DNA from: Sordaria brevicollis
Taxonomy: Eukaryota; Ascomycota; Sordariomycetes; Sordariales; Sordariaceae
Direction of reading: 5' to 3'
DNA: 64,000 nt
NCBI GenBank assembly: GCA_033439795.1
Contig: JAUTDP010000002.1
Coordinates: 1,302,001 to 1,366,000 of the forward strand
In this document: piece after piece, positions 11,216-61,488 of the stretch
How positions within the stretch are numbered: the stretch's first letter is position 1
Layout: the number at the start of each line of letters is the position of its first letter
Position numbers and translations under genes: made by a program
Notes under the pieces: generated by a model
Databases searched by the model: none
The model's input: only the letters and a program-made list of their open reading frames with translations
What the model was told of the DNA's origin: nothing

Positions 11216-11372
11216 TAAAATATAACGTTAATATAAAATATAGGGTTTTAGCGGGTAAAACGGGGAATTTTACATGCAGGTGTCATAGGCCGCCATAGGG
11301 TATTAGGGTAAGGGTTTTATATGGAGGGGATGTGTGGCTAGATTTGGGGGGATGTGTGGTCAGTTTTACCCT
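11216..11372. other. TG-rich island spared by RIP
   Basis: A short stretch inside the RIP-mutated block where TpG and CpA remain common (for example two GATGTGTGG copies near 11,328 and 11,351). It holds no coding signal. It is either a later or unduplicated insertion, or too short for RIP. No terminal repeats were recognised. Confidence 0.45.
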
Positions 11373-11564
11373 TATATAATTAATTAATATATTATATAAG
11401 AATTAAAATTATTAACTAAAAAGTACGCCGTATAATAAAATAGATTATTCGAAACTATAATCGTAAAATAAGGGAAATATTTCGAAATTGGGCGCAAATA
11501 TACCTTAAATAATATAAAGAATTATACTTTATTAAAATTACCTCCTTTATTTAAATATATAAAA

Positions 11565-11985
11565 TTATATAAGGGGTGGTCTATCTGCACTATTAAAAAG
11601 GTCTTAATCGACTGTAGAAGAAATGTTCAACTTTAAGTAACTCCGCGAAAAAAAATCGTAGAAAATAAAACGGTATATGGGGATTTTGCTGATTTTTTGC
11701 TTTAAATTTAGAATGCAACGACCTTTTAATTCTAGTACGCATTGAGTTTCTCTTGCTAAAAACCTCTTCTTAATAGTAAATATCTTAGGAAGGGTAAAAA
11801 GAAGTAAAGATAACATTGGTGAAAACGGACTTTACGCTTGAAAAATCCAGCAAAAATCAACAATTCCAACCATACTCTTTCTATTTCCCTAACCCCAACA
11901 TTGGTGAAGTTATACCTTATTTCATTTCCGGCCGACAGTCGACTAAGACTTTTCTAATAGTGTAGATAGGCCATCTCTTATATAA
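11565..11985. mobile_element. Small non-autonomous inverted-repeat element (MITE-like)
   Basis: A 421-bp unit with 51-bp terminal inverted repeats: left arm 11,565-11,615 and right arm 11,935-11,985. The arms share TTATATAAG at the outside and a CGACTGT block at the inside, and the mismatches I see are transitions. Two copies of AACATTGGTGAA lie inside (11,812 and 11,908). The interior keeps CpA/TpG, unlike both sides. A 70-codon minus-strand open frame (11,604-11,816) has no family signal. The ends resemble Tc1/mariner or pogo-type short elements, but the class is not proven. Confidence 0.6.
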
Positions 11986-11989
11986 AACC

Positions 11990-13900: not shown

Positions 13901-14022
13901 AATATAACCCTAACTAAAATTTTTGTAGTACTTTCTACTACTAGTAAAAGTAGTGCGTTAGGAAGTATCATGTCACGTGAGAGTTTTTAGGAATTGCTTA
14001 TTGATTCGGTTATAACCTACCT

Positions 14023-20378: not shown

Positions 20379-21217
20379 TTACTCACCAAAAACTAAGTGC
20401 ACCCATCGAGGGCAACCACGCCGGTCCCGCAAGGGTGCCAGAGGATCATGTTTTCTGCCTTGCAAGCAGGCATAATGATGAGTGTTTGGTCTCGAAGCTT
20501 CTGAAATTTTGACGGTGATATACCCTCTGTCCCTTTTGAGTAAGTTTTCGACGGTTTGGTAGTGCTTGAGGAGCTTTCTACGTAACGCAATCGCCAAAAG
20601 GCGATGTGGGACGCAAAGGAACATATGTTGTGCTTTGTAACCAGGCATGATGTTCAGTACTTGCTCTCGGAGCTTGCCAGTCCAGGTGAGGGACGAATCC
20701 TTGGTGCTCTTCACTGATTCTCTTGGGGGGGCAGATCTCCCCTGTGTTCACTCCGACATCTCTCCAATCAACTGCTTCTCGCCTCCAGCCTTCCAGAATG
20801 TAACCAGTTCCTTCAGAGAGTCCTTTTGACTTCCAGTGTTCCAGGCGCTTGTCGAGAAAGCAGACTTTGCTGTGGCCTTTTCGGGATCGTGTGCGTGATG
20901 GCCGAAGAGGTCACGGCCTCTGCCTGCTGGCGCTGGAGAAGCTGCCGCTCACGCAAGGCGGCGCTCCACGGTAGCAGAGCCGGGAGGGCGGCCGCGACCG
21001 CGACGGACGGGCGTGATGGGCGGAGAGCCCAAGTTCACGTTGTTCGTTCTGTTATCATCATTGAATGGTTGGCGTTTCGATCCTCAACATTGCTCTTTTT
21101 ATTGGTCTTTAAGACGCTGATGACTATTTGAACCTCGAATTTGCCCAATTCCGCACCATGACGAATAGTTACGTCTCTCCATTTCACAAAAAAAAGGCCG
21201 GCGGGCAGTTTGGTCAA
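20379..21217 (-). pseudogene. Decayed tyrosine recombinase (Crypton/captain-like), fragments
   Basis: Minus-strand fragments match the intact recombinase at 52,276-55,235. The segment near 21,200-21,080 reads P-A-G-L-F-F-V-K-W-R-D-V-T-I and G-K-F-E-V-Q, against A-G-L-F-M-K-W-R-D-V-T-I in the intact gene. The segment 20,690-20,500 reads L-N-I-M-P, then M-F-L-C-V-P-H-R-L-L-A-I-A-L-R-R and K-H-Y-Q-T-V. About 390 bp of GC-rich unrelated sequence separates two blocks that are about 20 residues apart in the intact protein. A second copy of the L-R-D-Q-T-L-I-I-M-P block follows at about 20,505-20,430 in another frame, so part of the gene was also duplicated. The catalytic YxxR and Y region is missing. 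It cannot be active. Confidence 0.75.
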
Positions 21218-42181: not shown

Positions 42182-43324
42182 GTTGATGTATGATATAGGA
42201 TAAGACGACGAATGGCCTAATTGGAGAAGGTGAGTCTGGATTTTGGGACCAGAAGGTTTTATACCTTTCCCATTCCCCGGATTACCATGCCAAGAAGGAG
42301 TTGAAGGTGCGGCTGACCGTCTCCTTGGTTGCCGTCGATGTCATCTCACTCCGGCTGTACCTCCCCGGTTTGCGAGGCGCAATCCGTCCCGAGACCCCTC
42401 ATTGCCCGGCTCGGACTTATGGCACTGCCACATCCCGGCACACACTGGACCCTTAACACTTTGTCTAATGCGGCTTGGCTGCTGCCTATTGATGACTGTG
42501 GCTTGAATGGCTCCCGTCAATATGTGACGGGTAAGCGCCGAGATTTTGATAGAGAAGGGAAAGATGAGATCGGCGTCTGACAGGTTGAGTGAAAAGTTCA
42601 AGTGGAAGATTTTGGGCGGTTCTCTAAAGGTTTCGGGGCATTGTCCCTATCGCTTCTCCACTATCTCACTAACATATAGGCCACACTCAGCACAAAAGAA
42701 TTTACCCTTACTAGATAGGAAATAGAGAAAAGATTTAATAGCTAGATTCTTTAATTGTCTCACTATACCATATAGCAGTTTTACTAAATGCTCTTCATCT
42801 TGTTAATAGTCACATTGTGAACAACATCAAGTATTGTGGATGTTGAAGAATTTGTTGTGAGTGTTAGTGCATGTTAAGGTCGTGCGCCCGTGCAGGCGAG
42901 CTTGCGGCTTCCCGCGATAGAACCTACCGTGAGCTGCTGATGTGGAAGTACTTGAACACATCCAGAGTTCTCAAAATTAATTGTAATACCGGATTTCTCT
43001 ATTTCACGCCTATTTAAAATTAGTGGGAGACTCCGATATCGTCAACTTGAGATATCCAAGTAGTAAATAGCTGAGAGTTGAAGGCTTATGTCACAAGCAG
43101 AGTTCAACAAGTAACTTTTGAGCGACAAGTTTGATATCGTAAGATAAGAAACTCGGTCGGAGGGTCGGACTGCATACCACATGATAGCACAAACAACCCA
43201 AATCATTCGACAAAGCGAAAATGAAACCAGATGGGCAAAAAAAGAATACGAAATCTAGTCTCTTTCGGATAAAGAGTACGAAGGGGGGAAAAAGGAAAAA
43301 AGAAATTGGAACGATCGGGAATTG
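42182..43324. other. Intergenic stretch upstream of the split tRNA, no supported gene
   Basis: Promoter side of the arrestin-like gene, then AT-richer sequence. At 43,270-43,305 the minus strand is T-rich, which would serve as the terminator of the tRNA-Lys whose 3' half starts at 43,325. Confidence 0.45.
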
Positions 43325-43354
43325 AGCCCGACGTGGGGGTCGAACCCACAACCT
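43325..43354 (-). pseudogene. tRNA-Lys(CUU) 3' half
   Basis: On the minus strand this is variable loop AGGTT, T stem GTGGG, T loop TTCGACC, T stem CCCAC, acceptor GTCGGGC and discriminator T: thirty bases that match canonical positions 44-73. Nothing upstream on the minus strand supplies a 5' half, because a 51-base hairpin and a poly(A) tract take its place. The acceptor strand pairs with GCCCGGC of the 5' half at 61,125-61,162 (one G-T pair). T-rich terminator-like sequence follows on the minus strand. Confidence 0.8.
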
Positions 43355-43403
43355 GGTACGGGGCAGCCAGTTCACCCCGTTAGGGGTGAATTGGCTGACC
43401 GTA

Positions 43404-43405
<2 letters not shown>
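43355..43405. repeat. 51-bp hairpin abutting the tRNA-Lys break
   Basis: The arms 43,355-43,378 and 43,383-43,405 pair almost fully around a GTTA loop; they begin GGTACGG and end CCGTACC. The first base of the hairpin is the first base after the tRNA 3' half, so the hairpin marks the junction exactly. Confidence 0.85.

Positions 43406-43435
<30 letters not shown>
43406..43435. repeat. T30 homopolymer
   Basis: Thirty T directly after the hairpin. On the minus strand this is a poly(A) run just upstream of the hairpin and tRNA 3' half. Open frames through it are artefacts. Confidence 0.9.
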
Positions 43436-43669
43436 CTTTCTCTCCCACTGCCCCGTTCCAGGGGCAGTACACCAGAACACACCAAACCACCTGTACACTA
43501 CAGGGCATTTCCCTCCGAGCGTAGCGAGCACCACCCCGGAGGGGCCTCCACGGAGTGGCCGCCGGAGGCAACACCCAACACGATTACAGGTGACACCACC
43601 TACCACCAGGGCACCCGACCGGCGACCGCCAATGGAAACCACAACATCCATGACCAAGGGCAACTACTA

Positions 43670-44026
43670 AAACACCATCACTACACCAAAACACCCTCAC
43701 CACCAAAACACCCTCACCACCGAAACACCCTCACCAACCACAATATCACCACCAAACCACAACATTACCAATTACCAAAACACCACCACCACCACCACCA
43801 CCAAACCACAACATCACCACCAACTACAACATCACCACCACCACCACCACCAAACCACAACATCATCACCAACTACAATATCACCACCAATTACCAAAAC
43901 ACCACCACCACCACCACCACCACAATATCACCACCAAACCACAACATTACCAATTACCAAAACACCACCACCACCACCACCACCACCACCACCACAACAT
44001 CACCAATTACCAAAACACCACCACGC
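43670..44026. repeat. CCA/CAC-rich low-complexity repeat
   Basis: Dense ACC/CCA trinucleotide runs with interspersed ACAACATCACC and TTACCAAAACACC blocks in many near copies. The open frames crossing it (T, H and P runs) are low-complexity artefacts. Confidence 0.85.
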
Positions 44027-44177
44027 ATGCAAACAAAACCAGGGGCCGCGGTAAGATACACGGGTTAGGGTTGAGTCAAGGGCCGCAAGTGCCAAGCCAA
44101 GCCCAAAACATACCTCTACCATTCGTCAAGCCCGTGCATAAATCTTGGCACCCGTAGGTCATCTACGAGGAAGGAGT

Positions 44178-44199
44178 ACCCAGTGTACTGGGCACTGGT
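44178..44199. repeat. 22-bp palindrome-like repeat, copy 1
   Basis: It contains CCAGTG and CACTGG arms around TACTGGG. It differs by one transition from the copy at 45,010-45,031. Confidence 0.7.
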
Positions 44200-45009
44200 A
44201 GACTCAGCTACCTACGACTCTCCAACCAGCCAGCCAGTCAGTCAGACTTGGCCTACCTCTAGTCCATCATCAATCCACACACATTGCAACCTGCATACTT
44301 ATCCTCATCACCTTTACAATTTATCTCAGTCGAAGACCTACCTCTAGCACCTCCCATGCTCCCGGAGAGACATAGTCCACACACACACACACACACACGA
44401 AACACGGCAACCGGGCAGCTGCCAGTCTTCAACAAAGTTACAAACCGCAACTTGTTCCGAACACGGTCAATTCTACGTTCAACAACAAGACAAGCAAGGT
44501 TCAATCCAAACAACTTGAAGAGGACAACTAGGTAGCTAGCAACCCGATTTTTTACAACCCACTAATACCCTGCAACTCTTTCCGCCTGAGAGAGAGAGAG
44601 AGACGCATACTGTGACGGGACGGCTCACCCGCTTGTCACCTGACATGTCACATGACCTCAGGTCGCCCAGGGAACCTCAGGGGCAACCTTCCATGTTCGT
44701 TGCAGTTCACTCCCTTGTTCACCGCACAGCCATTCACCCGCACAGCTTGAGGTATTTGTGAGGCACACAGTGCACTGTGCAATGCACCTGCCTGTAGGGC
44801 GCACGAACCAGGCACCTGCCACATGAGTCGATGTGCCTCTCCCACACATCATGTGTTAGTGAGTCGAATCTTGATTATGGCAAAATCGATCGCTCTACTA
44901 CCCCTTTTAACAGCTGAGGTTCCCAGAGGCAGTGTACACTCAGCTTCCATCGATCTCATCGCAGACAGGGCCTCCCACATTGAGGAAGGCGTAGAGGTAG
45001 GTACCTACT

Positions 45010-45031
45010 ACCCAGTGTGCTGGGCACTGGT
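45010..45031. repeat. 22-bp palindrome-like repeat, copy 2
   Basis: Same orientation as 44,178-44,199, 832 bp away, with the CCAGTG/CACTGG arms kept and G for A in the centre. Confidence 0.7.
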
Positions 45032-45233
45032 GGGTGACCTGCGGGCCAGCCATCGGCACAAGCCAGACCCAGTCCAGACTTCAACATCACCCCCTTACAG
45101 CCATTCACTCCGTGGAACGCAATCACTTCCATTCCTGTATACGATTACAAGTTTTCCTTTTTTCCTCACTGACACCTTGCGATTTTCCTTCAATTAGTCC
45201 GCAGCACTCGGTCCTTCAACAAGTCTGTTAGTG

Positions 45234-45257
45234 TTAAGGTTAGGGTTAGGGTTAACC
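45234..45257 (+). repeat. Interstitial telomere-like repeat
   Basis: Four hexamers TTAAGG, TTAGGG, TTAGGG, TTAACC; the middle two are the fungal telomere unit. A shorter GGGTTAGGGTT lies at 44,062-44,072. Confidence 0.75.
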
Positions 45258-46423
45258 AAAGAACGGAGCAAGGTCGGAAGAAGAGACGCGGCAACCAACT
45301 TGGGAAGCAATGGCACTGTCAATCGACACCAAGACGATACCATGGAAAGACGGAACAGAAACAACGTCAGAAGAAGAGAGCTCGCATTTACTACTATGGC
45401 ATTTATAGGTAACCTACAACCTACGCTCCGTCACCATGCGCAACGCCCACCACCATGCCAGACAGCACGGACAGACCCGACAAAAACCAATACAACCGCA
45501 AGTACCAAGTGGAAGCTTCGGTTCTTGTTCTTCCAGCTCGTCATCCTGCTCTTCCAGCTGTGTGTTGTTGCTTGCTAGTAGCGTTCCTCAGCCGCCGCGA
45601 GCTGCTGTTAGATGTGGTAGTCCCGCCGATCCTGTCTCAAACCTCAAGCCGGGGGCTGGGGGGGGAAGGGCAATCGGACTAAACTGTTACACCTACATTT
45701 CATCGCAAATCATGATTTTAGTCCCATATGATACTTTCGGTCTTCTGATCCTCTCCCACTTCCTCTCTTGACCGATTTTTTGTTTTCTTCTTTTGTATTT
45801 TTTTTTTCCTCCCTTTTGAACGGTTTGCGCGGTTCGTTTTGCGTTTGACTGCCCCACGACGAACTTGGGTACCTAGAAAACACTCTCGCCTTCATCTGAC
45901 AGTTTACAGGTTTCAAGATCAACAACAAAGTAAGGTAGGTAGTCGTCGCAACAACTGTTTGCCTTTGAAGACCACTAGGGCACTAGCTCATCTCGAAAGT
46001 GCAACCAAGCCCTGCATGGAAGGGGTAGAAAGGTCAAAATGGATAGAACAAACAAGTCTGGTACCTTAAGTAGGTAGAGAGGTCGTCCTCAAGATGACAA
46101 GGTCATTGCACTCAACCCTCCTTGCTCTTATTCTGTTTTTTTGCGGTGGGCTAATCAAACAACTGTTTCAAAGGTACCTACCGATCAAGTACCACCAGGC
46201 ATACAAATATTTCCATTCTGCTCGGTACACTCAACATACCTAACCTCACCTCACTGGTGAGCCTTGAACAGCAACCCGATTATTTTCTCCTACCTGCCCA
46301 ACCCTTAACCATCTACCTACATCCTCATCATCGTCGTCTAACAACCGCTTGGGGTCCAGCTCCTCCGTTTACTTCTCAGATCAGGAAAGCCTTTCTGTTG
46401 CCCGTCGACGCCCCTTGTCGACC

Positions 46424-47328
46424 ATGTCGGAGCAACAACCCGCGCAGAATGCATACGCTCAGAACAGTAAGCTTGTCAAGTATGACTGCAATCGACCTCA
46501 GCGACGCCACCATGAGATGATACGCATCACCGGACCAACCAGCCACAAAAAAGCAGAAGAAAAAAATGTCGAGAATGTTCTGGAAAAGCTGCCGCCGTTC
46601 CCGATGGGCAAGTTCTCGTGGACCTCGGAGGAGCTAAACGTTCCGGACAACCCAACCGACGATGACAGGGACGTCATGCTCGTGATTGGGGAGGTCCTTC
46701 CTCACCACGTAGTCACCTCTCATCAAGCACAGGAAAACCCAAAAGGGGTTATTCCATGTGTTCCCTCCGCTCGGCCGCTGGTAACACCGGTTCGGGGAAT
46801 CAACCGAAACCTATTTGTGCTCACCACTCGAGACTCGACCTCTCACAGATATCAAGTTCAAATCTATGGCGCCAAAGACAACTGGGACAATATCTTTTTC
46901 TACCCTGAGAACGCTATTCATGTCGACACCAAGCAGTACAGGAGCAGGTTCGATGCCTGGAAGAAGAACATTACCAACTTCCTAGTCAAGAATGATCGAG
47001 GCCAGGCCACCAACGCTATCCCTTTGGCCTCCAAAGGCGTAAAACCCCCCCTACCTCCGCCCACATCCTTGCCTGGTTACAATGACCACTACGTGGCCAG
47101 CAAGTGCATCAAGGCACTGTACTTGCACAAGATGACGGGAATCAAGGAGTGGCTTCGTGTGGCGAAGGAGGCCGCCAGCGACAAGATTGGCCATCTAGAA
47201 CAAGCTACAACCAATCTATTTGACGAGCTCTGCCTCATCGACAAGCTCTTCCACGGTAAAGATGCCTTTAGCTTGGAAGATGCGGCGGCTACCTCGATGG
47301 CATGTCAGGTACGTTCAGATTCTGCCCA

Positions 47329-47388
<60 letters not shown>

Positions 47389-48267
47389 CCTCTTTGCCCT
47401 CCTTGCATACTCCCCTACTACCTACTCTCTTCTTCATTTTTCCCATCCATCTTCTTCGTACTCAACATTACCATTCCGTCGTTTCCCTCCTATAATTCTT
47501 TTGAGGTGGGCGTAAGATCCTACGGCAGATTTAACTCGAACGTCCGAGTCATTGATGTTACCTACAGTACCTACTTGACCTACACCGTGCCCAAAAAGAA
47601 AAAGAAAGAAAAGGCTAATCAAACTGTTGTTTTCCCTCCATAATAGGTTGTCTGGTTTCAACAAGCACTGGAGGAAGACGTCAAGGTTTTCAACCCTAGG
47701 CATCTGCTGAATTTGGCGGGCTGTCTTCGCGCCGAGCAGCCCGTGCTCTTGGATCGGGATATTCTACCACCCCTCTACCGCACATTGTTGGTGGTTTTCT
47801 GCACTTTGGCTGATGATGGCCGTCAAGATTGGCCCGAAATGCTTACCACGGCGTACAATTGCGCCCGATGGTGCAGACCACATGATCGCGACAGCAACAT
47901 ATTCACCAGCGATATTCTAACCGTCAAGGTGGCGGAACCGCAAACTGCTCTTCTGGGCTATATCCGTGAAGAGGCAGGCTGCACCGGTATGCTCATCCAA
48001 GCCATTCGAGAGATCCTGGACCAGGACGAGCGGGAACTTCAGAGTTTGAAACCTCTGTGGCATGTTGAGGCTGCCGACCCAAGTCCTAATGCTGCACTCG
48101 CCAGATTTGCAAACGCATCTGACCCAGACGAAGCCAATCTTGCTACGCATGAGCTTGCGCTCACCTATATGGCACGCGCACATATCTTGGTCCGTCAAGT
48201 GGTTGCCGCTTTGGAGGCGAAGAAGTCGTCGGATGACCGGGTTATTGAGGCCTTGCTTAGGGGGTAG
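46424..48267 (+). CDS. Unrecognised 501-aa protein within the putative insert
   Basis: Exon 1 46,424-47,308, intron 47,309-47,646 (338 bp, GTACGT...ATAATAG), exon 2 47,647-48,267, joined in phase 0. The ATG is in CGACCATG. The protein is soluble with no signal peptide or membrane segment. Visible landmarks are a Lys/Glu-rich start, D-V-M-L-V-I-G-E-V-L (about 85), a beta-rich block L-F-V-L-T-T-R-D-S and Y-Q-V-Q-I-Y-G-A-K-D, then an alpha-helical C-terminal half (L-D-R-D-I-L-P-P-L-Y-R-T-L, A-T-H-E-L-A-L-T-Y-M-A-R-A-H). I recognise no family. The intron is several times longer than its neighbours' because of a T58 run and C/T-rich sequence. Its place inside the tRNA split suggests cargo or an accessory function. 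Confidence 0.7.
47331..47388. repeat. T58 homopolymer in an intron
   Basis: Fifty-eight T within the intron of the 501-aa gene, 22 bp after the donor. The exact length may be unreliable in any assembly. Confidence 0.85.
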
Positions 48268-49119
48268 TCATCGGCAAACTACCTACCGTCGGTGAAGCGG
48301 ACGTCATGACCGAGACATGATTCTTTGGTTGTAAAGACTTGGGAACATACAGCCACTCCAGTCCGTTTGGTCAGGCTTCTCTTTTGTCAGTACAGCTTCT
48401 GGTCCTCCTTATAGGTATCGATGCTGTGGACCGCGCTACAATAGGTAGTTTTGTAGTCGGTTGAGCAAGGTCTCGGTTTCCCGTCGTCATTTACCTCTGT
48501 GGGCTTGAGTTTCCGATGTGCGCAGATGGATGGAAGATGAACCCTTCTCATGAACCAGGTACGGTGGACAAGACCATCACAATTAACGGTTAGTGACTAA
48601 TTATCTCTCTTCGACTTCGTCCCTTGACGTTATTGTTCATCTGATTATATTCTATCCCTCTGCGTCGCTACCCCTTTCCAAACTTTCGTAGACCGCACAC
48701 TGGCATCACCTGCTTTTTACCGCACCTAGGAAAGGGTCGTACGGCATGTGTACATGGATAACATGGTGCTATCGCTGTCACTTTCGTCCCCTTCATTCCC
48801 TTCTCTCTCCTGATCTTTGTGCGTCTTCCGCCCTTCATCTCCCTTCGGATTCACTTCTTCGTGGACACGATTCTCGCCGCTACCTCCAACCTCCCGCCTC
48901 AATAAGCTATTGCGGTAGTGATGATGTTGATGCTGAGCCGCCCCTGCTTGCAACGATGTTTGCTCGGCCGTGTTTTTTCGGTTACGTTTTCCCTCCCGTT
49001 TTTCAGCCGAGGATTGCGCAATGGGCTGTACGACGCATCGTGTTAGTGTATCTCTTCTTTACAGCATCTTGGATGACCCTCCGTTGCCTTGGGTCGAATG
49101 CTGGAGGCCGTATGTTCAT

Positions 49120-49581
49120 TCATACCTCTACCGGCTTTGTTGCGCCTTCGACGCCGTATTCGTGCCCCTCAACGTTTGTGTCCTCCTGTCGCAGTTTCCT
49201 CTCAAATTCCGCATCCAGGCTGGCAGACCGCAGGTTGAAGATCTCATCGTTGTTGGCAGCGTATCTGTCCCTCGCTCTCAGAGTTACTGTCCGGACCTGG
49301 TGCAAAAGCTGGTTGGGGGAAGCAAATCCATTTGCTCCCAGATCCTTTTTCAATGATTGCGGTATCGCGGGGTTCGGATCTATGACCTTGGTGTCGCTTT
49401 CCATACGAGGTCCAGCAAATGCCTCTCGATAGCCGTCTAGAGCCTCTTCCAAAAACCCATCCGTCTCCTGCCTGCCGTTCTCCATCATATCTGTATCCTT
49501 CATGTCCATACCGGCAATCTTTCTAAACCATGTCGCACGCTGGCTAAATTCCGTTGGATTATTAGGCTGCCGGCGATTCAT
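49120..49581 (-). CDS. Unrecognised 153-aa protein within the putative insert
   Basis: Single frame with ATG at 49,579-49,581 (M-N-R-R-Q-P-N-N-P-T-E-F) and a stop at 49,120. It is charged, Asp/Glu/Arg-rich, with predicted helices (L-L-H-Q-V-R-T-V-T-L-R-A-R-D-R-Y, A-E-F-E-R-K-L-R-Q-E-D) and no signal or membrane segment. Plus-strand frames over the same DNA are Ser/Cys-rich and look like shadows. No family recognised; moderate confidence that it is a gene. Confidence 0.45.
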   Translation of the reverse strand: MNRRQPNNPTEFSQRATWFRKIAGMDMKDTDMMENGRQETDGFLEEALDGYREAFAGPRMESDTKVIDPNPAIPQSLKKDLGANGFASPNQLLHQVRTVTLRARDRYAANNDEIFNLRSASLDAEFERKLRQEDTNVEGHEYGVEGATKPVEV

Positions 49582-50458
49582 TTTCGGCTCAGGAAGTGTT
49601 GTCTCCTATAATTACGATGTACACTTGTTAGTTAAAGTGTATGATCCAGTAGAAGACCGTCATCCACCCCAACGCAACTATGCTGCTCTTGTATCTTCAA
49701 CCGTACCGGACTTGCGTGGAAAGGTTTTAATTGCTAATTAGGATCTTTGGGGAAGGTAGCATGTCTTGGGATGTCTGTACCTATGTGGAGGACTTGGACT
49801 TGAGCTCATCCCACCTCTTTTGTTCCCTGGGATTTTTGCCCGCTCCGATCAGTCGTTAGCATCTGGTTGAGACGCGGTTTAAGTATGGGTCCCTACCTTA
49901 CAATCTGCTCACCGTCGCTCCTTCCTTTTCTGAATTACCCTCCCGCCGCCGAGCACGTTGCCTCAGGTACGAAATTTCAAGCTTTCATCTCAACTCGGCC
50001 ACAGTAGAAATGGAATCCCTTAGGGCAGAGGGTTCCTTGCCCTACCTAAATGACGGTCCGCACATCCTTTTTCTAGGGTAAAGTATTCCAGTATCCTCCC
50101 CGCCGTTTTCGTTGTAGTTTTGTTGCACGTCAACACCGTTCTACGATTTCAATCTTGTCGAGCGCACCACCACGACCGACCCAAACAATCACCGCGTTCA
50201 CGACCACGCCATAACAACCTGAAAGAAGGTACCTCTAGTGTGCTCAAGGTAAGAATTTGTATTATAGGTCGTATAATTTGTTCGTTGGTTAGATGATTAT
50301 GCCTCTGGCAGGTCATCTACAACCAACTGCTAGTCGCCGCCTGTTTTTGACGTTGCGCATCTACACCTCTCAGTAAACAAGAGCCTATGTGATGTCGTTC
50401 TTATCCAAGAATCCTCGATACTAACCGCTTCACAGTCATACAGTTGCCATATTTCAAT

Positions 50459-51322
50459 ATGACCGACGAAACTCGAGAACCTGGACAACCTTTGCCGGGA
50501 CCAGATGTCTCTGTCACGCGCACCAGGGCCTGGCTTCGCCTCCGCCACCCGGAGTCGGCCAGCGCTTCCGAAGCCGTGATCATGAACAACCTGGCGGTCG
50601 TATCCGACCAGTTATCTCAGCTTCTTGCGCTCCAGACCACTACTTCGCTCGGTGGCCGGAAGCGCCGCCGCACTTCCAGTGTTGGGTCGGCCGCCAGTAC
50701 GGCGACTACCGATGGGAGAGAAAACAGAAATGTCGACGGCTCCGACGGCGAATTGTCAACCCAGCAAAACGACGCGGAAATAATCAACTCCGCCATCAAT
50801 AATCTCAGCAATACCGGAGGCAAATGGTTCAACACCATTTACGATGCCTATAAAGTATTCACCCAGGATACTGGAAGCTTTCGCTATCGTGCTGTTTCAA
50901 AGCATACTGGGCCTGTGGCCGAAGCCTTCTGGAAGTTTTGCCTCGAGCAGTTTGATAATGAGGAAGACGGCCTTGTGCCAGATATTGAGGAGGAGAGCGT
51001 GCTTGATGACCTGAAGCGGCTTACGAACATCGATGCAAAGGTCCGCATCTACGTTGAGTTAGGAAAGAAATTTCACGCGGACCAAAAGGCCGCTGCCGCC
51101 CGGAAGTCACCTCGCTCTGGCACCGCTGGACCCGACAGCCAACACTCGACCGCAGGCGCCAGCCAAAGCACGCGCACCGGGGATAGCCAGCAATCCCGCA
51201 CATCCAAGAGGCAGAAGACCAAGGGCAAGAAGACTGGCAGAAATGTCTCATTCGGCTCCGAGATTGCAAACTCGGAAGACGACGGCATTAGGGACACCAC
51301 TAGCAGTGATGAGGATCTGTGA
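50459..51322 (+). CDS. Unrecognised 287-aa protein within the putative insert
   Basis: Single exon, ATG at 50,459 (M-T-D-E-T-R-E-P-G-Q-P); a possible 5' UTR splice acceptor lies just upstream. The N-terminal third includes a helical pair (A-V-I-M-N-N-L-A-V-V-S-D-Q-L-S-Q-L-L) and a basic R-K-R-R-R. A compact central domain (about 105-205) has N-A-I-N-N-L-S-N, K-W-F-N-T-I-Y-D-A-Y-K-V-F and A-F-W-K-F-C-L-E-Q-F. The end is Ser/Lys-rich with K-R-Q-K-T-K-G-K-K-T-G-R, a likely nuclear signal. Nuclear DNA- or chromatin-linked function is possible but no family is recognised. It is 950 bp upstream of and co-oriented with the tyrosine recombinase. Confidence 0.65.
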   Translation: MTDETREPGQPLPGPDVSVTRTRAWLRLRHPESASASEAVIMNNLAVVSDQLSQLLALQTTTSLGGRKRRRTSSVGSAASTATTDGRENRNVDGSDGELSTQQNDAEIINSAINNLSNTGGKWFNTIYDAYKVFTQDTGSFRYRAVSKHTGPVAEAFWKFCLEQFDNEEDGLVPDIEEESVLDDLKRLTNIDAKVRIYVELGKKFHADQKAAAARKSPRSGTAGPDSQHSTAGASQSTRTGDSQQSRTSKRQKTKGKKTGRNVSFGSEIANSEDDGIRDTTSSDEDL

Positions 51323-51414
51323 AATTTGGGCTTTGAAGTGGCAATCGACGTGCCCTCTCTCTCAGAACCAAGCGATCCGCCACTCGTCTGATTCAGTAAT
51401 CGCATCATTGGAGA

Positions 51415-51461
51415 ATGGAGGGGAGGACTGTGGAGGGGAGGACTGTGGAGGGGAGGACGAG
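51415..51461. repeat. 15-bp tandem repeat, three copies
   Basis: GGAGGGGAGGACTGT units, the last one degenerate, about 95 bp past the stop codon of the 287-aa gene. Confidence 0.75.
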
Positions 51462-51829
51462 GAATTCAGGAATGTGATAGCTAGGGTTTGTTAACCGTGG
51501 CGCTAGTTATAACAACGATTAAATTGTGTATGAGATGATTGTATGTAAAACAATGATTGCTATTTCAACAGACTGCAACTGCCACAGCGTTATTTTTGAC
51601 TAAAATCGAGGATTAAAATGCCAAAGTTCCACATACACACTTCATGTTCACTTCCTTTGTTTCACGCGGCTGCCGCTGGAGCATATTGCCTGGTTCATTT
51701 TGCGTCTCATGGCCATCGGCCAAGCACCCCTTAAGGGCGCCACACTTCTTCCACCGACGGAGACGAGATGAAATCCCATTCACTTCCTGTAGCCCCTCAA
51801 GCCCTAGATTTATCCCCACCTTGATGCCA

Positions 51830-52270
51830 CACCTCGACCACGGAAAATATTTTACTACTCTTTTCTTTTGGTCGAGTTCCGACACACTTCTTCGTCCACC
51901 CCGTTCACCCTCTCATTCTACATCCCGACACGTATCAGCCATCACTCGATACAGTCACAACAGTCGACGACGCCGCACCTCGGCCACGGAGAATATTTTA
52001 CTACTCTTTTCTTTTGGTCGAGTTCCGACACACTTCTTCGTCCACCCCGTTTACCCTCTCATTCTACATCCCGACACGTATCAGCCATCACTCGATACAG
52101 TCACGACAGTCGACGACGCCGCACCTCGGCCACGGAGAATATTTTACTACTCTTATCTTTTGGTCGGTTTCCGACACACTTTTTCGTCCACCCCGTTTAC
52201 CCTCTCATATTCTACATCCCGACACGTATCAGCCATCACTCGATACAGTCACAACAGTCGACGACGCCGT
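51830..52270. repeat. 146-bp tandem repeat, three copies, upstream of the recombinase
   Basis: Units start at 51,830, 51,976 and 52,122, each beginning CACCTCG(A/G)CCACGG. They are nearly identical; the third has a 2-bp insertion. Each unit contains TTTTACTACTCTT, TCATTCTACATCCC and a CAGTCGACGACG end. The array stops within 6 bp of the recombinase ATG, so the promoter and 5' leader lie in the repeats. Long open frames across it only mirror the repeat. Confidence 0.9.
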
Positions 52271-52275
52271 CAGCA

Positions 52276-55235
52276 ATGCCTCCACAGGCGATTCCCGGTG
52301 TTTACACCGGCGCAAAACGCCGATCGCTGGCCGAGGAGATCAACAACTTGAGTTTCGATGACGAAGCAATCTTCAAATTCTTCGAAGAAATTGATCAGAT
52401 TTCCGAAGAATCTGGTAAGTCGGTCTCATTGTAAACCACCTACCACTCCGGTCTCTGCTTTGTAGATCACCTACCACACTCCCGTCCCTGCTTTGTAGAT
52501 CACCTACCGCACTCCCGTCCCTGCTTTGTAGATCACCTACCGCACTCCCGTCCCTGCTCCGTAGAGTACCTACCGTATTCCATACAAATTTGCTAACATC
52601 AACTGTAGAGGGATTCCGATGGCATGCAGTGTCGACCCAAAAAAGACAAGACCGGGCGAGGCAGCTTTACATCAATATGCTGAAGCTCACTCCGCGGCTC
52701 GGACGTCCACTACTTCCAGAGGACTTTGACGACCTGGAGCCAGCAGAACAAGACAAGCATCTTTGGCCTATGGACGAAAAGAAGTTGCACGCAATGGGAA
52801 AAATGTAAGTTTACTCATTCCTAAAATTATGTTGTGGGTTAGTAGCATTACTAACCCCTTTCCCAATCGACAGCTTCATAATTGGCATCGGCCAGTTCGC
52901 AAAAGGCCGGAGCCATCAGAGTGGAGTTATGAGTTACTCGTCGTACGCGCAATATCGCGATGCCTTCATGTTCTGGGCTCACCGGACATGGAATGCCGCC
53001 GACACCCCGACCGCTACAACACCGCAATACTGCAGACTCAAGAACAAACTCACCGCCGCAATGAGACTTGTTGCCTCGAAAGGTATGGTCAGGGTCGCTA
53101 CCAGGTCGAAACTTACATACTGCAACGACGTCGGAATGGCCGAGTTACAGATGTTAGTGGACTACGACCTCCTCAATTCTCGATGCAAGGAGGTGGCCGA
53201 GGTCCACCATCTTGCCTGGGCATTGGGGCGTATTTGTTGCTTCAGACCAGGTAGTATTGGTTATTCTACCCCAGCGCACCTCAAAGCCGGCCTTTTCATG
53301 AAGTGGCGAGACGTAACTATTCTCCGCGGTAGTGAACCCGGCAAGTTTGAGATCAAACTTCTCGTTCGTTCGTTCAAAACGAACAACCCCCACGACGCAC
53401 ATAAGGCTTCCCATAAGCCAGAGCTCTTGCGCGACCAAACGTTCAATATAATGCCGGCAAGAAATATTGATGATATGTTTCTGTCGGCCCCCCATCGTTT
53501 CATCGCAATGGCGATCCGCAGACGCATTCTTAAGCACTACAAGACAGTAGACGAACTGTTTGACGGAGACAGACGACAAATCATGATCAAAGACGAGTAC
53601 TTGGACTGTCCGGTTTTCTTGGCTGCAAAGCCCAAGGGGGAGGGGCTTACCGATCAACCCGTCAGTACCCACGGTTTGAGTGCATACCTCAAACTTAGAG
53701 GTATCAAAGTCGGTCTGCCAGAGTACATTAATTTTTACTCTTTGCGGCGCAGATCAGCGAATGAGCTGGCCAAGAAGGGGAGCATTGGAATTGAAGCCGC
53801 CAGATTGCTCCTCAACCACGACCCCGAGACAAGAACCCTGGAGCGGTATTATATCGACCCGGTTCGCACTATGGATGTCTCCGCCCTCGCGTTTGGACAT
53901 GAGCCAGACGATGAGCGTATGGCGACCAGGGAAACGGAGTTGGCCCTAAACGTCCTCTCCGATGAACGAAAGAGGGCCGTTTTTGGGCCACTCTTAAATG
54001 CCACTATGAATAAATTGATGGCGTCAGACCCTGGCTTCCCAAAGGATGCCAATACGACCGAGCTGAGGAATTATAAGCGACGGGTCCGATGGGCCGCGAT
54101 CAAGAGTCTTTTCAGTCAGGCTACCCAACAACAACTGGAGGAGATGACTTCGGCCGACGAACAACAGCGCATTGCGCGGCTCAAAGAGTGTAGCTTTACG
54201 AACTCAATTATTGAACGTGCGAAGGAAGCCCTGGCCAACGCGCCAAACATCTCGGCTCAAGATGATGCAAATAATGAGGACATTGACATGGGCACTGGGC
54301 TGTTCAAAGTTCCCAAAGATCAGTGCGAGTCTTTTCCAGCAGAACCAGACGCTGAGTCAAGGGAGGAAAACGAAATCACCTGTGGTACCGAAGCAGACGA
54401 GAGCGAAGGCACGGCTGACGGCCCTGATACCGAGGATGAGCCAGAGAAAGAGGTTGAATATGTCGTCTTGGCAAGAACTTTTGTCAAGATGCTCCTCGAG
54501 GATTCAGTTCAAACCGATTTACAAAGCAACCCGGTTCCGTGTCGCTTCTGTATTGAAGATGACACGATTCCTGAGGATCGGCGGAATAAGCTCTACAGAC
54601 GTCGTGATCATCTGGAGAAGCACGAGCAGTCTGACATACACACTCCGTTCAAAAAATGGATGCGGCTATACGAACGCAACTACCTTGATTCCCCGCTCAA
54701 GGTAGCTAAGCAGTTTCCATGCCCGTATTGCAAGGAGCTGGGCATCAACAAGTCGTATGCGTCATGGAGGCGGCTCCTAGACCACCTTGAACTTGACGGC
54801 GATGTCAACCCTGCTTCCCTGCGTACAGCTGACCGCCGCCATCGTGAGCTACAAGATGCCGATGGATGGCTCGATGAAGACTTTTTTGTTTTCGTCGAAA
54901 TCTCCACTGGTAGACGGGCGTCAGTTGCATCAAACTCGAAGAGGAAGTTCAAGCGGTTATGCGCAGAGGCGGGAATTTCCGTCTCCGATGACCAAGAACT
55001 GGCCACGCCCATCAACCACGAGTGGAATGGTGCCATTGTAAGGGGGGGCAATGACGATGAGGAGTTTGCGAACACTCGTGGTCTGCAATCTATGGTCGAA
55101 CCCGCCCAGGACCCGGGATATCCAATCCCTAACGTCAAACGGCAAAAGAAGTCAGTGGAAGAGCTACCAGACCACTCCGAGGATTTGGCCGACTTTTACT
55201 TCGACAGTGAAGTCCACGAGAAGTTGAACATGTGA
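52276..55235 (+). CDS. Tyrosine recombinase with C-terminal zinc fingers (Crypton / Starship-captain-like)
   Basis: 898 aa in three exons: 52,276-52,414, 52,609-52,804 and 52,874-55,235 (introns of 194 and 69 bp, GTAAGT/GTAG and GTAAGT/CAG with CTAAC branch sites). Residues about 130-230 form a helical core-binding region. The catalytic domain carries Arg236 in C-F-R-P-G-S, Y400-S-L-R403 (YxxR where phage enzymes have HxxR), His427 in L-N-H-D-P-E-T-R, and Tyr437/438 in E-R-Y-Y as the nucleophile. YxxR is reported for Cryptons and Starship captains. After an acidic linker come two zinc-finger-like segments: C668-x2-C671...H695/H701 and C728-x2-C731...H749. No frameshift or internal stop, so it may be active. 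Decayed relatives lie at 20,379-21,217. Superfamily placement (DUF3435 or Crypton) needs a profile search. Confidence 0.82.
52435..52580. repeat. 34-bp minisatellite inside the first recombinase intron
   Basis: About four copies of a unit reading TGTAGATCACCTACC, then CACTCCCGTCCCTGCTT. Each unit contains TTTGTAG, which looks like a 3' splice site; the true acceptor (AACTGTAG) lies 28 bp past the array. Confidence 0.85.
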
Positions 55236-57051
55236 GTTGGAGGGGAGGGGCGGGTGTATAAGGTATCATACACGAGCACTACCTGCTACTTCTAGTTCGG
55301 CTACGTGGTAGATTATCTACCGTGGAGCATAGGTATGATGCAGATGATGATGAGTCCTTTAGTGATAGCACTATTTGTTCTTCGGACTACTATGGCGAGC
55401 AAGCGGCCTTCTTCAGGGCTTGAAGCACAACAATGCTGTGGATCTCATCATTGGGGTACCTCTAGGTACATACAAGAAAAAGGGGATCATTTATGTAATG
55501 ATATAAATCTTTGGCAAATGGATTAACGGCAGCGGAAGGACGAAGGGTAAAAACACCATAAACCTGGTGATCTTTCCTTTTATGTATTTAGCTGTCGGTT
55601 TCAGTGCTTGAGGTGGGTGTGTTGACTTACCCGGCTGGTCTACACGTGCCGCGCATGTCACATACACAAGCACTGCCATCCCTCCCATAGTAAGATTGTT
55701 ATTGTCCAATGTTCTATGCTATCCCTGTTGTGATGTGTGCAGTTTTGTTGGTGTTTGTAATTTTCCTTGTTGTACGTATTCAGTTTTGTGATTCCAAGTG
55801 TTGTGCTTGCCGAAGTGTGGTACCTACCTCCTGGTACAACCTTACACGGGGCAGTGACGGTGTTACAACCGGGATGTACAATATCTGTTGAAATAGCAGC
55901 AACAATGCCAGTAACAAATGCAGAAATGAATTCAAGTATGCGTGCCGTTCGTAGGTGAACTACGAGATAGCAAAATTGACGGTGATGGAACTTGGACGGA
56001 AAATGAGAAAGAAACACAAAACCCGACGCATAAAAGAAGTTACCATGCTCAAAGGATTTGTTAGTTGCTGCTGCAGTGTCTTGACTTCATATAACACAGT
56101 TTTTTTTCTGGGAATTGGAAAACTTGAAAGAACGTAAATACAACTTTGTATGTGGGAAGGTTTTGTCTCTACCTCTACCGCTAGTTAAAAGACATGCAAA
56201 CTGTTGGACTTGTGCATTAAGACACCATCTTTAAGACAGAATAAAAACTCGTTAGGTTCTTTACTAGTACCCTTATCATCTCTTACCTACATCCTGTTAC
56301 TCGAATCGGTATGGAAAATAAAGACTATACCACCACAAAAACGATGAGAACCATATTAAAATTTACTGAATAGGCTAGAGGAATAGAAATAGATCTCCAG
56401 GAGGGAAGCGGATAACATAACAAGTAAAACATCTTTGTGACGGAAGTTCTTTAACCCATCTCAGAAGCAGGGAGGGATAGCCACAAAGACGTGACTACCG
56501 AGATGATGTTCACTATGTGAGAGTAAGGTTTTCGGAAGAAACAAAGTTTCTTATTTATTTGAATTATATTTTGTCTTGCTTACTACCTTACAACTGCTTG
56601 TCCTTCTCTGTTTTTCTTTCCAACCTTCCTTGATACTTAGGGAGTTATTTTATATCCTTATTTCCTGTCCTTTCCATGTGATGTTCCAAAACTCATTGCA
56701 TGACCTGTAGTGTTCAAGCAGTGTTCCTGATTAGCTCATCTGTCTCAATGCAATGCATCCTCCAAATCAGCTCACTCTTTCCTAATGTCCTGTCTCTCCC
56801 ATGACTAAAAAAAAAAATCCCTGAGGAGTCCTTCAAAAGACAATCCTACAAAAGACTTTTCGAAAGAAATCTGAAAACATATCTGAAAAGGAATCTGCGA
56901 CCTAGCCCTATACCCATGTAGGTACTTATCAATGTGCCCCATTTTATTGCCTACCTACTTTACCATCGGAGTAAGCGGAACCAAAGCAATTACCGCTCTC
57001 TATTGATGTATAGTACCTAGAGAAATTTGCCAGTACCTATCTGTATATACT
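55236..57051. other. 1.8-kb intergenic stretch between convergent genes
   Basis: AT-richer sequence between the stop codons of the recombinase and the SNF2 gene. Only short, unsupported frames. No terminal repeats recognised. Confidence 0.45.
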
Positions 57052-59944
57052 TTAAAGTCGCGGCATCATGATCCTCTGGCCATCCTTGCGAACGACGTTT
57101 TTAAGCAACTTGGCTTTTACCTCAGTTTTGGACTTGGTACGACTGATGATAAGGTCATCGATGGCTGAATCAGTCAATATGTCCCAGATCCTAACACTTC
57201 GCTCTTGGCCCATCCTCCAAATTCGCCCGATAATCTGATCACGTAGACCAGGGGCCCAGTACGGCTCGCAGATAATCAGGTCCGAAGCTCCGGTAACGTT
57301 AATGCCAATTCCTCCACAAGTTGAAGAAATCAGCAGGATTGAATAATCCTTAGAGACACACAACGGCTGATTGAACGTTCTTAATACCGCGTCCCGTTGC
57401 AGAATTGGCATCGTTCCGTTGTATTCAACAACTTTGGCTTGTGTCAAGTATTTTAGCCCGCTTAACGAAAGAGTTGTATCCTTAGCTCTCCAACCTGCGA
57501 CCAAATGACCAAATGCTGTACCGGCCACGTCGTTGTGAGTGTATGTGTTTCCAAGGTTTGAGACTCGACGGATTGCTTCGTGTATAATATCGAGGAACTT
57601 CACAGATGTGGCAGTGATCATAATCTTATGTCTACACTGCTCATTTTGGTCCTCTTCGTTATCTTCGTCGTCTGTAAAGATCTCATTATGAGCCAGAGGC
57701 GTTTGTTGCTTCTTGCTACCAGTCTCAAATATTTTGAGAACGGTTTCGACAATAACGCGCACTTTGGGGGAGAATATGGCGTTGTGTTCGGCATTTCTTA
57801 GCTTATTGAGCCATTTAATCGTATATTCATGGTCGCTTCGACCTCTGGTTTGGGTGGTAGGTGATGTACCGGATGCCCATGTAGTTTCAACCACTTCCTC
57901 GTTATCGTCATCGTCCTCCTCTCCATCTAGATCTAGGTCGCATCCGAATTCAGGATTTATATCCTCCTGTTCGTATTCAGGGTCGGCTGCCTCATCGTCA
58001 TCCTCAAATTCCTCTTTGTAATTAATTACCGGTCGGCGTCTGAGGTGATGGCTGGGACCAACAGTGGGACTTGCTGGTTGCCCGTGGTCTCTTAGAGGTA
58101 CTGACTGCGACTGAGCAGCATTATTCTCCTCGTTATCTTCTAGTAATGATTCAGTTAATAAACGGTTGGAGTCAATTTGGCGAGCCAACGTCAAGTGCCG
58201 GAAACCCTGTTGAACAAGTTGTGCCCTTCTCAATTGGTGATTCGGACGCCTAGCTAAGCGTAGACACTGTTGAGCTTTCTTTACTGCTTGCGAAATGTCC
58301 GTACGGGCTTCTGGGTCTGCGTCAAACACAACCTTGATAGTATGCTCTTCTTTTTCTGGTAAATCCAATACCGACTTGGGTCTCGCCACGGTCAGCCTTA
58401 GGAGGAGGCGTGATAAGATGGCCAAGTGGGTATCATCTGGGCGTACCAGTCGATCGGCCATTCCGCCACCCATTGTACGGATGAAGTGCGATTTGTTGTC
58501 GAATAGCGGGCATGGAAATAAGAGGAAGAGTGACAGAAGGTCATCCCAGTGGTTATACACAGGAGTGCCGGTTAATAAAAAGATGTGATCGTACTCCAAT
58601 GCCCGAACCGCTGCTGCAAGTAGTGTTGTTTCGTTTCGGGCATCGTGCGCTTCATCAAAAATAACGACACGAATATTTCTTCCCAATAAAGAATATAAAG
58701 GCGAGTAGAGTATCGGCAATGGATGCTTAGACGTACGGTCACCTGCGTTGATAATCCTTAAGTTGTCCATGGCTTGTTGCGTCGTGTGCTTGATATACTG
58801 GTGTCGTACTTGGCTTTGGCTGCAGATTACAATGTCGAAGCTTAATAAGTCGTAGGCCGGGTATACTCCGGTGTCAAGAATTAGAACCGACGGCTGGTGA
58901 TCCTGCATCATGTGTCAGTCATGTTGTTTTTTGTCGTCGATCTTTGCCTAGCAGGATATAAATAAGCCTGCAGGGAGTCTCTTCACTTACAATTGCAAAA
59001 TGTTTCCGTATTTCGTCCAGCCACTGCAAAACACACGATTTTCGCGTGATGACCAAGACGTAGCCAGAGCCTGGAAGATCCCGTTTCAACTTAATCGCCG
59101 CCACAAGGGCCGTCAGCGATTTTCCCAAACCCATCTCGTCGCAGAGCAACGCTCCTCGGAACGGTGAGTGAGCCAGTCGGCATAGTCTTACTACACCGCT
59201 CGCCTGCCATGGCTGCAACTTGCTTTGAAGTATGTCAGACAACCCGTCAGTAGGGCTTGGTTGAAGTTTATGAAGCTTCCTCTATTAAGTAGTAAAAGTC
59301 AACGATTAGGTATCTTCTCAATATACGCCTGGCTTGGTCACCTCCAGGGTTGACGAGTGCCCGTCTAAATGGATGATACTGCACTTACACATTCGTCGTC
59401 AAATGATTTCTCGGTGACGAAACCCCTTGCACTCTCGCGCTTGTTCCCGACCCTTACAGTCTCTGAAAATGCTGCATCTGGTTGCTTGGAATCTTCCAAG
59501 ACGGTTTCGATTGTCTTGCTGCGTTTTTGGACTTCGCCTATCAGTGGATCATAATCATCGTCATTGTTTTGGTCGTGTGTCGCATCGAGCTTATTAGTGT
59601 TTGGATGCCTTAGATGTTGCGTTTTTTTGGTCTGTAGGGTATAGGGACCGACAGCGGCGCTGGGCCTTGTCCACGATAATGGATTGTTGGCTTTCAAGGA
59701 AACGGAGTAATCGAGCTTGAGCTGGGAGAACGATTCGATGGCTTTTTGTTTTTCCTTGCGAACATGGTCCATAAACGCCAAAGTTGCCGGGTCCCTAAAG
59801 TAATCAGTCAGTGAGTCACTTCGGTGATCCCCTCCCCCACTCCTCCTGAGAAAAAAGGAAGGAAAAGGTGAGCGTATTTTGATACATGGGCAGTGGCTGG
59901 CTGATAGAGGGTGTAACCTACATATTGCGTTTGTGATTATCCAT
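57052..59944 (-). CDS. SNF2-family DNA-dependent ATPase within the putative insert
   Basis: 873 aa in four exons: 59,944-59,922, 59,845-59,389, 59,281-58,991 and 58,902-57,052 (introns of 76, 107 and 88 bp). An alternative first acceptor at 59,795 is also in frame and shortens the protein by 17 aa. Helicase motifs: I (D-E-M-G-L-G-K-S, residues about 208-215), II (D-E-A-H, 340-343), III (L-T-G-T-P, 367-371), V (S-T-C-G-G-I-G-I-N-V, about 784) and VI (Q-I-I-G-R-I-W-R-M-G-Q, about 813-823). A very acidic, disordered insertion (E/D-rich, about 555-595) sits between the lobes. No RING finger, bromodomain or chromodomain is seen, so it is not a typical Rad5/Rad16. Such ATPases remodel protein-DNA complexes; a link to the recombinase is inferred from co-location. 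Confidence 0.85.
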
Positions 59945-61124
59945 TGCGTGACTGCTTTCACGGTTGACCTCTTCAGTCGGCGTTGCGATGGGGAGTTGCA
60001 CTTGATATGATGAAGATATTCGTCTCGATAAACTACTTATTTGCTTGGTGTCTTTGCTGGAAAGGAAGAGGGAGAGGAAGAAGGACATGGAGAGGAAGAG
60101 GGGATTGACTGAGGCTTCTTATACCCAAAGATTGCACAGCCGCTCTTAGTCTGCGGTCTCGTCTTTCCTACCTTAGGCTTATGAAACCCTCGTCCTAAAT
60201 ATTGGAGAGTTACATGGTCGGTATCCTACACGTATCAGATAAAAACACGGCGGCGTTACCGTCAAATGGAAGGAATTGAAGATGGGACTTAAATGGAGGT
60301 TTAACTTTCGACTGGTCAGTCTACAACCGCGGTGGAAACAAATCAGTCTATCTGATCTAACCACAGATCTGACTACAAATCTAACTGAGTGGGTCAAATC
60401 CAAGGTCAACTCTAATCTAATCTAATCTGTTTGCAAATATCTGCAGATATCATACCTGTGGGTAACTGGGATGTACAGACCTAAGGGTTGGGGTGGGTCG
60501 ATCTTTCAGGGGTCAAAAACATGACTTTTTGCATCTCTACCTGTAAGGTCACGAACAGCAACAAGCTGATCAAATCAATAGATTGGTGATACTGTTATAG
60601 AAGAGAGGAGAGGAGAGGAGAAGAAAAGAAAGCGGATCTGGAAGGTCTGGAGGTTTAGAAATGTGATGGTCAGGACAAGGGCATGGCACAGGCCAGGCAC
60701 AGGTGAATGTGCTGGTCAGTGTGCAACCCAGTGAATGCCAGACCCACCAACACTACACTTGCTACCGGTGCTGCAAACGCTGCGGAGTAGCGTGCCGGTA
60801 TTCAGATAGAAAGGCGCGATTGCGCGAGAGGGCTCATAACCTCTTGGACCACAGGTACAAGGCAAAGATGAGAGAGTAGATGATATTGTCTCGAAGAGAA
60901 CAGGCTACGAACGAACGCAATGAAAAGCTAGCTAAGTGCGGTGGTGCTGGGACAGTGGGACCTAGCTAGTCACGTAAGAGGTAAAGGCCAGCTGGGGCGC
61001 AAGACTACCCCTAACACAATGATTCTACCGGGTTACCAAGAGGGCGGGCAGATATTTAGTCCAAATCTGAGGTTAGATTTGATGATTTGCTTGACTATTT
61101 ATTCCTTGTTTACGGAGGAACTCC
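59945..61124. other. Right edge of the putative insert, no supported gene
   Basis: Promoter side of the SNF2 gene, then simple repeats: CTAATCTAATCTAATC near 60,412-60,428 and GAGGA units at 60,601-60,630. A small AAATCT/AGATTT hairpin lies at 61,063-61,080, and GGAG-GAA-CTCC (61,114-61,124) ends exactly at the tRNA junction. Confidence 0.5.
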
Positions 61125-61162
61125 TTAAGAGTCTCACGCTCTACCGATTGAGCTAGCCGGGC
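61125..61162 (-). pseudogene. tRNA-Lys(CUU) 5' half
   Basis: On the minus strand: acceptor GCCCGGC, TA, D stem GCTC, loop AATCGGTA, GAGC, G, anticodon stem TGAGA and loop CTCTTAA with anticodon CTT. These 38 bases match canonical positions 1-38 and include an A box. The next bases (GGAGTTCCTCC) do not continue the tRNA. No T arm or 3' acceptor occurs within the following 200 nt, so an intron-containing intact gene is excluded. The matching 3' half is at 43,325-43,354. Confidence 0.85.
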
Positions 61163-61488
61163 AAGCGGCTATCAATCACTCCTTGATGTTTGGTGGTGAC
61201 GTTTCTTACCCTTATAAGCTCAAGATTACTGCAACCTACCACCACCCAATGCTTGTACCCGATGATGATGACTCGCCGTAAACACTCTAGAATAGTACAG
61301 AGTACTTTTGTAGAGTTCCCAGTAGCGGTAGGTATGTAGCAAGAAAAACATTTACTTTATATATTTCCTAGTAATTACCCTTTGGATTTCGACAAGTCGG
61401 TAACATACGCTCATCATACATCGCATTCTCCAAAATCGACGCCCCGCCTACGGCGACAACTAGATTGGGTGAGGTCCTCTTCCTCAGA

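Follow-up and report, generated by a model that had tools for sequence, protein, structure and literature searches.

The use of a tRNA gene as an integration site is a classic among bacterial genomic islands and phages, which employ a tyrosine recombinase and usually restore the tRNA gene. Other described systems that bear comparison with the locus considered here are the Dada elements, which use a DDE transposase, the Cryptons, which are small, and the Starships. Dada DNA transposons, described as fish elements, are reported to target multicopy tRNA genes, in one group tRNA-Lys (PMC8869645), and Cryptons are reported as fungal tyrosine recombinase (YR) elements with short direct repeats of 4 or 6 bp (PMC3212892). 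For Starships, sizes of 15-700 kb have been reported, and terminal inverted repeats, noted in 18 of 20 Starships of Aspergillus fumigatus, are not universal; for some families of captains, insertion into 5S ribosomal DNA has been reported, and as this too is an RNA polymerase III (Pol III) gene, there is precedent for small Pol III targets. The locus at issue is a segment of 17,753-17,755 bp (~17.75 kb) lying within a split tRNA-Lys(CUU) gene of Sordaria brevicollis, in a stretch of 64,000 nucleotides analysed as a whole (the window, C12:1302001-1366000 of the 53-Mb genome). In the reading favoured here, to which a probability of roughly 0.58 is attached, this would be a Starship-like segment placed at the 3' end of the intron of that gene, its integration at the word TACGGAG likely being the work of the recombinase that it encodes.

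The primary evidence comes from the tRNA gene itself, the two pieces of which lie on the minus strand at either edge of the segment in the order an insertion would give (Table 1), just as the sequence-only reading had described. That reading also arrived correctly at a 73-nt tRNA made up of halves of 30 and 38 nt with 5 nt missing, and the T-rich tract that it reported outside the 3' half is indeed present. Its identification of the five missing bases stands as well (TGAGA, the 3' strand of the anticodon stem), but it overlooked a 15-nt intron, TTACGGAGGAACTCC, which the right half keeps at 61110-61124 in the same form as in two intact genes. Since the intron is whole in the right half, the right-hand tRNA piece extends over 61110-61162, the inserted stretch ends at 61109, and the break falls at the 3' splice junction of the intron. 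In the orientation of the window plus strand, the intact gene L011 reads ACAACCT TGAGA TTACGGAGGAACTCC TTAAGAG, while the window reads ACAACCT, break, GGTACGGGG ... CCTTGT, break, TTACGGAGGAACTCC TTAAGAG. Neither ARAGORN nor Rfam (at its gathering score) called a tRNA at either half, as is to be expected where each site holds half a tRNA. Halves, intron and flanks thus agree with the earlier proposal that one tRNA-Lys gene has been split by a foreign segment carrying a tyrosine recombinase.

Table 1 Features of the split tRNA-Lys(CUU) gene and of the segment within it (window coordinates).
Feature	Position	Strand	Remarks
tRNA-Lys(CUU) 3' half, discriminator base included	43325..43354	-	43308-43354 100% identical to intact paralogues C12:3386577 and C7:1503117
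Near-perfect 51-nt hairpin at left junction	43355..43405	+	-24.7 kcal/mol, z -7.4
Candidate left direct repeat TACGGGG	43357..43363	+	6/7 match to 61111-61117
Gene A, 501 aa, two exons	46424..48267	+	relative P0024 in Neurospora sp. IMI 360204
Gene C	50459..51322	+	related to part of an N. hispaniola gene model running on into YR
Three tandem copies of a 146-bp unit (100, 96, 67% identity)	51823..52260	+	end 15 bp before YR start codon
DUF3435 tyrosine recombinase (YR) gene, annotated protein 902 aa	52276..55235	+	PF11917; exons from 52276 and 52593
SNF2-type ATPase gene	57052..60036	-	open frames 57052-58914 and 58919-59281
Solo-LTR-like copy nested in segment (LTR, long terminal repeat)	60539..60753		genome copies, several as same-strand pairs ~5.7 kb apart
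tRNA-Lys(CUU) intron, retained whole	61110..61124	-	identical to introns of L011 and L012
Right direct repeat TACGGAG, within tRNA intron	61111..61117	+	paired with TACGGGG at left junction
tRNA-Lys(CUU) 5' half with anticodon CTT	61125..61162	-	read from sequence

Whether the two pieces belong to one gene can be judged by comparing them with the other copies. The exact 25-nt 5' end of the tRNA-Lys occurs 26 times in the genome, and on inspection of all 26, exactly 23 proved complete (an intron of 14-21 nt is present in 18 and absent from 5), leaving three that lack a 3' half; of these one is the window copy, and the other two, on contig C7, seem to have been broken by ordinary deletions. On the 5' side, an ungapped count over the flank at 61163-61188 gives 25/26 for L011, 23/26 for L013 and 17/26 for L012, with the other 20 complete genes at 3-10. 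On the 3' side, where the flank separates the copies less well, L011 and L013 match 43308-43354 at 100% and most other copies reach 96-98% over a similar stretch, while a 60-nt local alignment of the flank scores 26 for L011, 25 for L013, 23 for L003, 18 for L012 and 9-22 for the rest. Because L011 and L013 are the two best matches on both sides, the simplest reading is that both halves most likely derive from one tRNA-Lys gene, and a pairing of halves from unrelated copies seems unlikely; the intact paralogues can serve as empty sites by analogy only. That a rearrangement, or an assembly join, between two tRNA-Lys genes of the same subfamily left a 3' and a 5' half facing one another is very improbable: several tRNA-Lys genes do share these flanks, and broken ones exist elsewhere (L008, L013, L014), but recombination of two copies should have yielded whole genes, there is no overlap where the halves meet at the intron edge, and the published annotation has gene A, the YR and the SNF2 gene on contigs of one size (5,380,946).

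The position of the break carries further information. A second orphan 5' half of tRNA-Lys, with intron, is found at C27:3283133 (L014, L083), and its break falls on the base at which the window copy, too, is interrupted; it ends in ...CTCCGTAAAC, where the intact gene reads ...CTCCGTAATCTCAAGG and the window copy ...CTCCGTAAACAAGG. No 3' half was seen within the nearly 6 kb read alongside it, and this orphan supports a preferred break point rather than proving a second element. (Additional intron matches on C6 and C22 were discarded, being without a tRNA and in sequence that looks coding.) The word TACGGAG at the break lies within 14 of the 18 intact tRNA-Lys introns, with TACGGAGTA in 9 of the 18 and the full 10-mer TACGGAGTAG in one. 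The Starship Tardis h1 has been given that 10-mer as its predicted target (PMC12153272), with TACGGAG making up the first seven bases, and the function of the Tardis CTACGGAGTA motif is described in the same source as open (PMC12153272). The left-junction word TACGGGGCAG matches TACGGAGTAG at 8 of 10 positions, as do 0.18% of random junctions, in a comparison that was picked post hoc. The idea that TACGGAGTAG is simply an abundant word in this genome was rejected, there being 49 occurrences against 81 for its reversed control. On the plus strand of the segment TACGGRG occurs just twice, at the two junctions, and on the minus strand once, at 52557; a smaller nested element beginning beside the YR was likewise rejected, as there is no TTACGG or TACGGRG on the plus strand between the junctions.

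The sequence-only reading had also placed a tyrosine recombinase and a SNF2 ATPase inside the segment, and both reading frames are open. The YR matches PF11917 (DUF3435) in Pfam with E-values of 4.5e-10 / 6.3e-10, over the curated cut-off. With a recombinase of DUF3435, the family of the Starship captains, and a break at a word that forms the core of a target predicted in print for a Starship, the suggestion of an element wholly outside known classes is not supported in the form given. Across 6 aligned rows (5 distinct proteins) the YR residues R146, Y310, R313, H337 and Y348 are invariant. Going by motif, with no captain in the alignment, Y348 is likely the nucleophile and Y310 likely stands in place of the Cre histidine; the two tyrosines are 38 residues apart and by motif fit the tyrosine pairs reported for the captains of Sanctuary (34 apart) and HhpA (35 apart) (PMC12506042). 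The YR gave no GCR1_C match in Pfam at E up to 0.5. Its first intron contains 33-bp tandem repeats (52444-52575). The SNF2 gene, which sits between the YR and the right edge, encodes both ATPase lobes, with Rad5 as the nearest solved sequence (E 3e-24), and 59365-60036 may be an upstream exon of it. For genes A and C the Pfam scan gave no confident domain; the intron of gene A contains a 58-nt T run (47331-47388).

Relatives of these proteins were sought in a database of 5.8 billion proteins, the YR and SNF2 being scored on the ~8,000 candidates that shared most words. Among those scored, counting the query itself, there were 5 proteins for the YR and 17 for SNF2, the other named fungi for the latter being Neurospora sp., Coniochaeta sp. 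and Fusarium culmorum; gene A had 2 proteins, itself included, in the database. The YR and gene A are 100% identical, across the portions that align, to proteins of Sordaria brevicollis, and the source is accordingly taken to be this species. Relatives of YR and SNF2 occur in Coniochaeta sp. 2T2.1 on contigs of equal size (2,296,830), taken as one, and in Neurospora sp. IMI 360204 relatives of gene A (69%) and SNF2 (57%) lie on contigs that differ in size. In the N. hispaniola gene model P0003 a relative of gene C (33% over 92 aa, E 1e-10) is joined to a YR, and a further relative, P0002, belongs to Fusarium flagelliforme. A scan of viral contigs for YR relatives gave 189 pattern matches, none of them a relative. 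Within this genome the interior genes occur once, apart from short YR and gene C fragments: a PF11917 search gave one match, a search with the YR protein gave 10 including the window gene (the rest short pieces on C1, C4, C8, C12, C24 and C27), the next best SNF2 match is 36% identical, and gene A found no further match in this genome. Gene C is represented elsewhere by a scrambled relic at C27:3130047-3131193 (L086) and a 32-aa match on C12; a YR relic at C27:3087187-3088147 (L065) lies on the same strand as the gene C relic and ~42 kb from it, both within the last 250 kb of a contig. Such patchy sharing among Neurospora, Coniochaeta and Fusarium is what a mobile element would give, and it fits the earlier view of the segment as a mobile system.

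The segment could also be what is left of an ordinary but larger Starship from one of the known captain families (e.g. Tardis), its 5' end having been lost or rearranged so that the captain is now internal. The DUF3435 recombinase and the TACGGAG core common to the Tardis target would both suit such an origin, and the scrambled gene C fragments elsewhere indicate that rearrangement does occur in this family. It is nonetheless distinctly unlikely, because the N. hispaniola model also has the gene C relative together with a YR, which makes a gene ahead of the YR more than a local rearrangement; moreover, the six segment proteins scanned against Pfam showed nothing above cut-off beyond DUF3435 and ATPase/helicase domains, in a scan in which the Starship accessory families were not checked singly.

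Several observations weigh against an integration by the element's own recombinase, and should be set out together. The direct repeat at the junctions is a weak candidate, not proof: it is short and has one mismatch, a 6/7 match arising in 1.5% of trials with randomly placed left junctions and in 4.5% once the register is relaxed, and a test loosened to any shared 5-mer gives 11%. The left flank has TGG in place of TTGAGAT, unlike a clean recombinase product, and the outer 600 bp contain no terminal inverted repeat of at least 10 bp with an exact match. At the right edge there are a fragment resembling a miniature inverted-repeat transposable element (MITE), an LTR and other repeats. Between the left edge and the start of the YR (52276) there are 8.9 kb that include genes A and C, and the structure models predicted for the YR, from alignments of 6 rows (full length) and 5 rows (core), are too poor to help, with a mean predicted local distance difference test score (pLDDT) of 40 for the full length and 47 for the core. 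Finally, no second intact copy of the segment was found in this genome, the surroundings of the YR and gene C fragments, as far as they were read, contain no tRNA-Lys half, and the C27 orphan half shares no sequence with the window segment past the break.

Some of these points are what one would look for if the YR were a passenger, the tRNA gene having been broken in some other way (retroposition, or capture during end joining) and the YR region lying in, or arriving later into, a repeat-rich pocket. The scarred left flank, the repeat debris at the right edge and the weakness of the direct repeat all suit such a history, as does the 51-nt hairpin, which with the 30 T residues that come after it (43406-43435; A30 when read on the tRNA strand) somewhat resembles a retroposon tail; hairpin and T run together may represent either a site for the recombinase or a scar left by some other event. 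What makes a passenger YR unlikely is that TACGGAG is found just where the tRNA gene is broken, at the edge of the intron, that the second orphan half on C27 is broken at the same place, and that other genera possess parts of the gene set.

If integration by the YR is accepted, the sequence of events might be as follows. The pre-insertion site would have been an uninterrupted tRNA-Lys gene, reading ...CCTTGAGATTACGGAG... between the outer flanks; the YR would recognise and bind TACGGAG within the intron and recombine a circular or looped element into it, leaving TACGGRG at both element ends. The change from TTGAGAT to TGG on the left would then reflect either a small later alteration or an imprecise junction. 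Any role for SNF2 is a guess, whether in opening chromatin or in aiding excision. Loss of one tRNA-Lys(CUU) gene is expected to be tolerated, since 23 intact copies remain, and the intron would then offer a safe landing site.

No report of Starships targeting tRNA genes came out of the literature search, which did not extend to three works central to the subject of target sites (NAR 2024, MBE 2022, PNAS 2023), and tRNA is not mentioned in the main text of those Starship papers that were searched for the word. If the favoured reading is true, multicopy tRNA introns are a landing site for Starship-type mobile elements, and one that is defined and easily scored for captain-type recombinases; the target word of a known Starship, at present unexplained, would gain a candidate explanation; an element of less than 18 kb would be available, in a harmless laboratory fungus, in which integration and excision could be assayed; and there would be a natural route by which eukaryotic tRNA genes get broken. 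A bolder proposal, tentative and rather doubtful as it stands, is that the segment represents a distinct Sordariomycete lineage, with a core of an internal captain-type YR, SNF2 and genes A and C, specialised for TACGGAG in tRNA-Lys(CUU) introns, that the Tardis word comes from the same intron, and that tRNA introns are a general harbour for fungal DUF3435 recombinases.

Other features of the window and its repeats may be recorded briefly. The MITE-like pieces at the right edge lie at 60329-60454 and 61022-61083, and matches to this edge on C22 and C26 were rejected as further element ends in favour of a MITE-like repeat, because in L035 the ends CAGCGGTGGAAAC...GTTTCCACCGCTG are inverted and accompanied by the 8-bp sequence TTGGGATG as a target repeat, of the length expected of hAT elements. 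The ~5.7-kb spacing of same-strand pairs of the LTR-like copy is what LTR retrotransposons would give. Positions 1-14000 form an AT-rich block (G+C 0.27) with a strong signature like that of repeat-induced point mutation, TpA/ApT being 1.24 against 0.57-1.05, and (CpA+TpG)/(ApC+GpT) 0.28 against 1.06-1.29, in the 11 other stretches measured. At 20508-21208 there are pieces of a second, distant DUF3435-type recombinase (~50% identity), ~1.1 kb from a tRNA-Gly gene; a comparison by 11-mers found no partial tRNA copies at the YR fragments by tRNA-Asn (L070) and tRNA-Gly (window 22315). The Rfam tRNA count, for which 63 of 2243 candidates were scored, was not used for densities.

It remains to place the segment among the systems introduced at the outset. 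Unlike the bacterial islands, it leaves the tRNA gene split, not rebuilt, and with Dada elements it has no recombinase relationship. With Cryptons it has in common a fungal YR and, as a candidate, a short direct repeat, but fungal Cryptons carry GCR1_C, for which the segment YR has no Pfam match. Its likeness to Tardis h1 is one of target word, TACGGAG at the junction against the predicted TACGGAGTAG; Tardis h1 is ~82 kb with other cargo, and its motif, for which overrepresentation in the A. fumigatus genome has been reported, is not overrepresented here (the 49 against 81 given above). To Starships in general the resemblance is broader, comprising a YR of DUF3435 in which captain-like tyrosines are conserved, several genes as content, a candidate short direct repeat, a putative word-specific target and a size above the 15 kb minimum, whereas SNF2, genes A and C, the tRNA intron site, the internal captain position and the lack of any terminal inverted repeat found in the segment all set it apart. 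With a captain away from its expected position, no terminal inverted repeats found, a direct repeat that is a candidate and empty sites known from paralogues by analogy, the segment is not filed here among the Starships, although it likely works in the way that they do.

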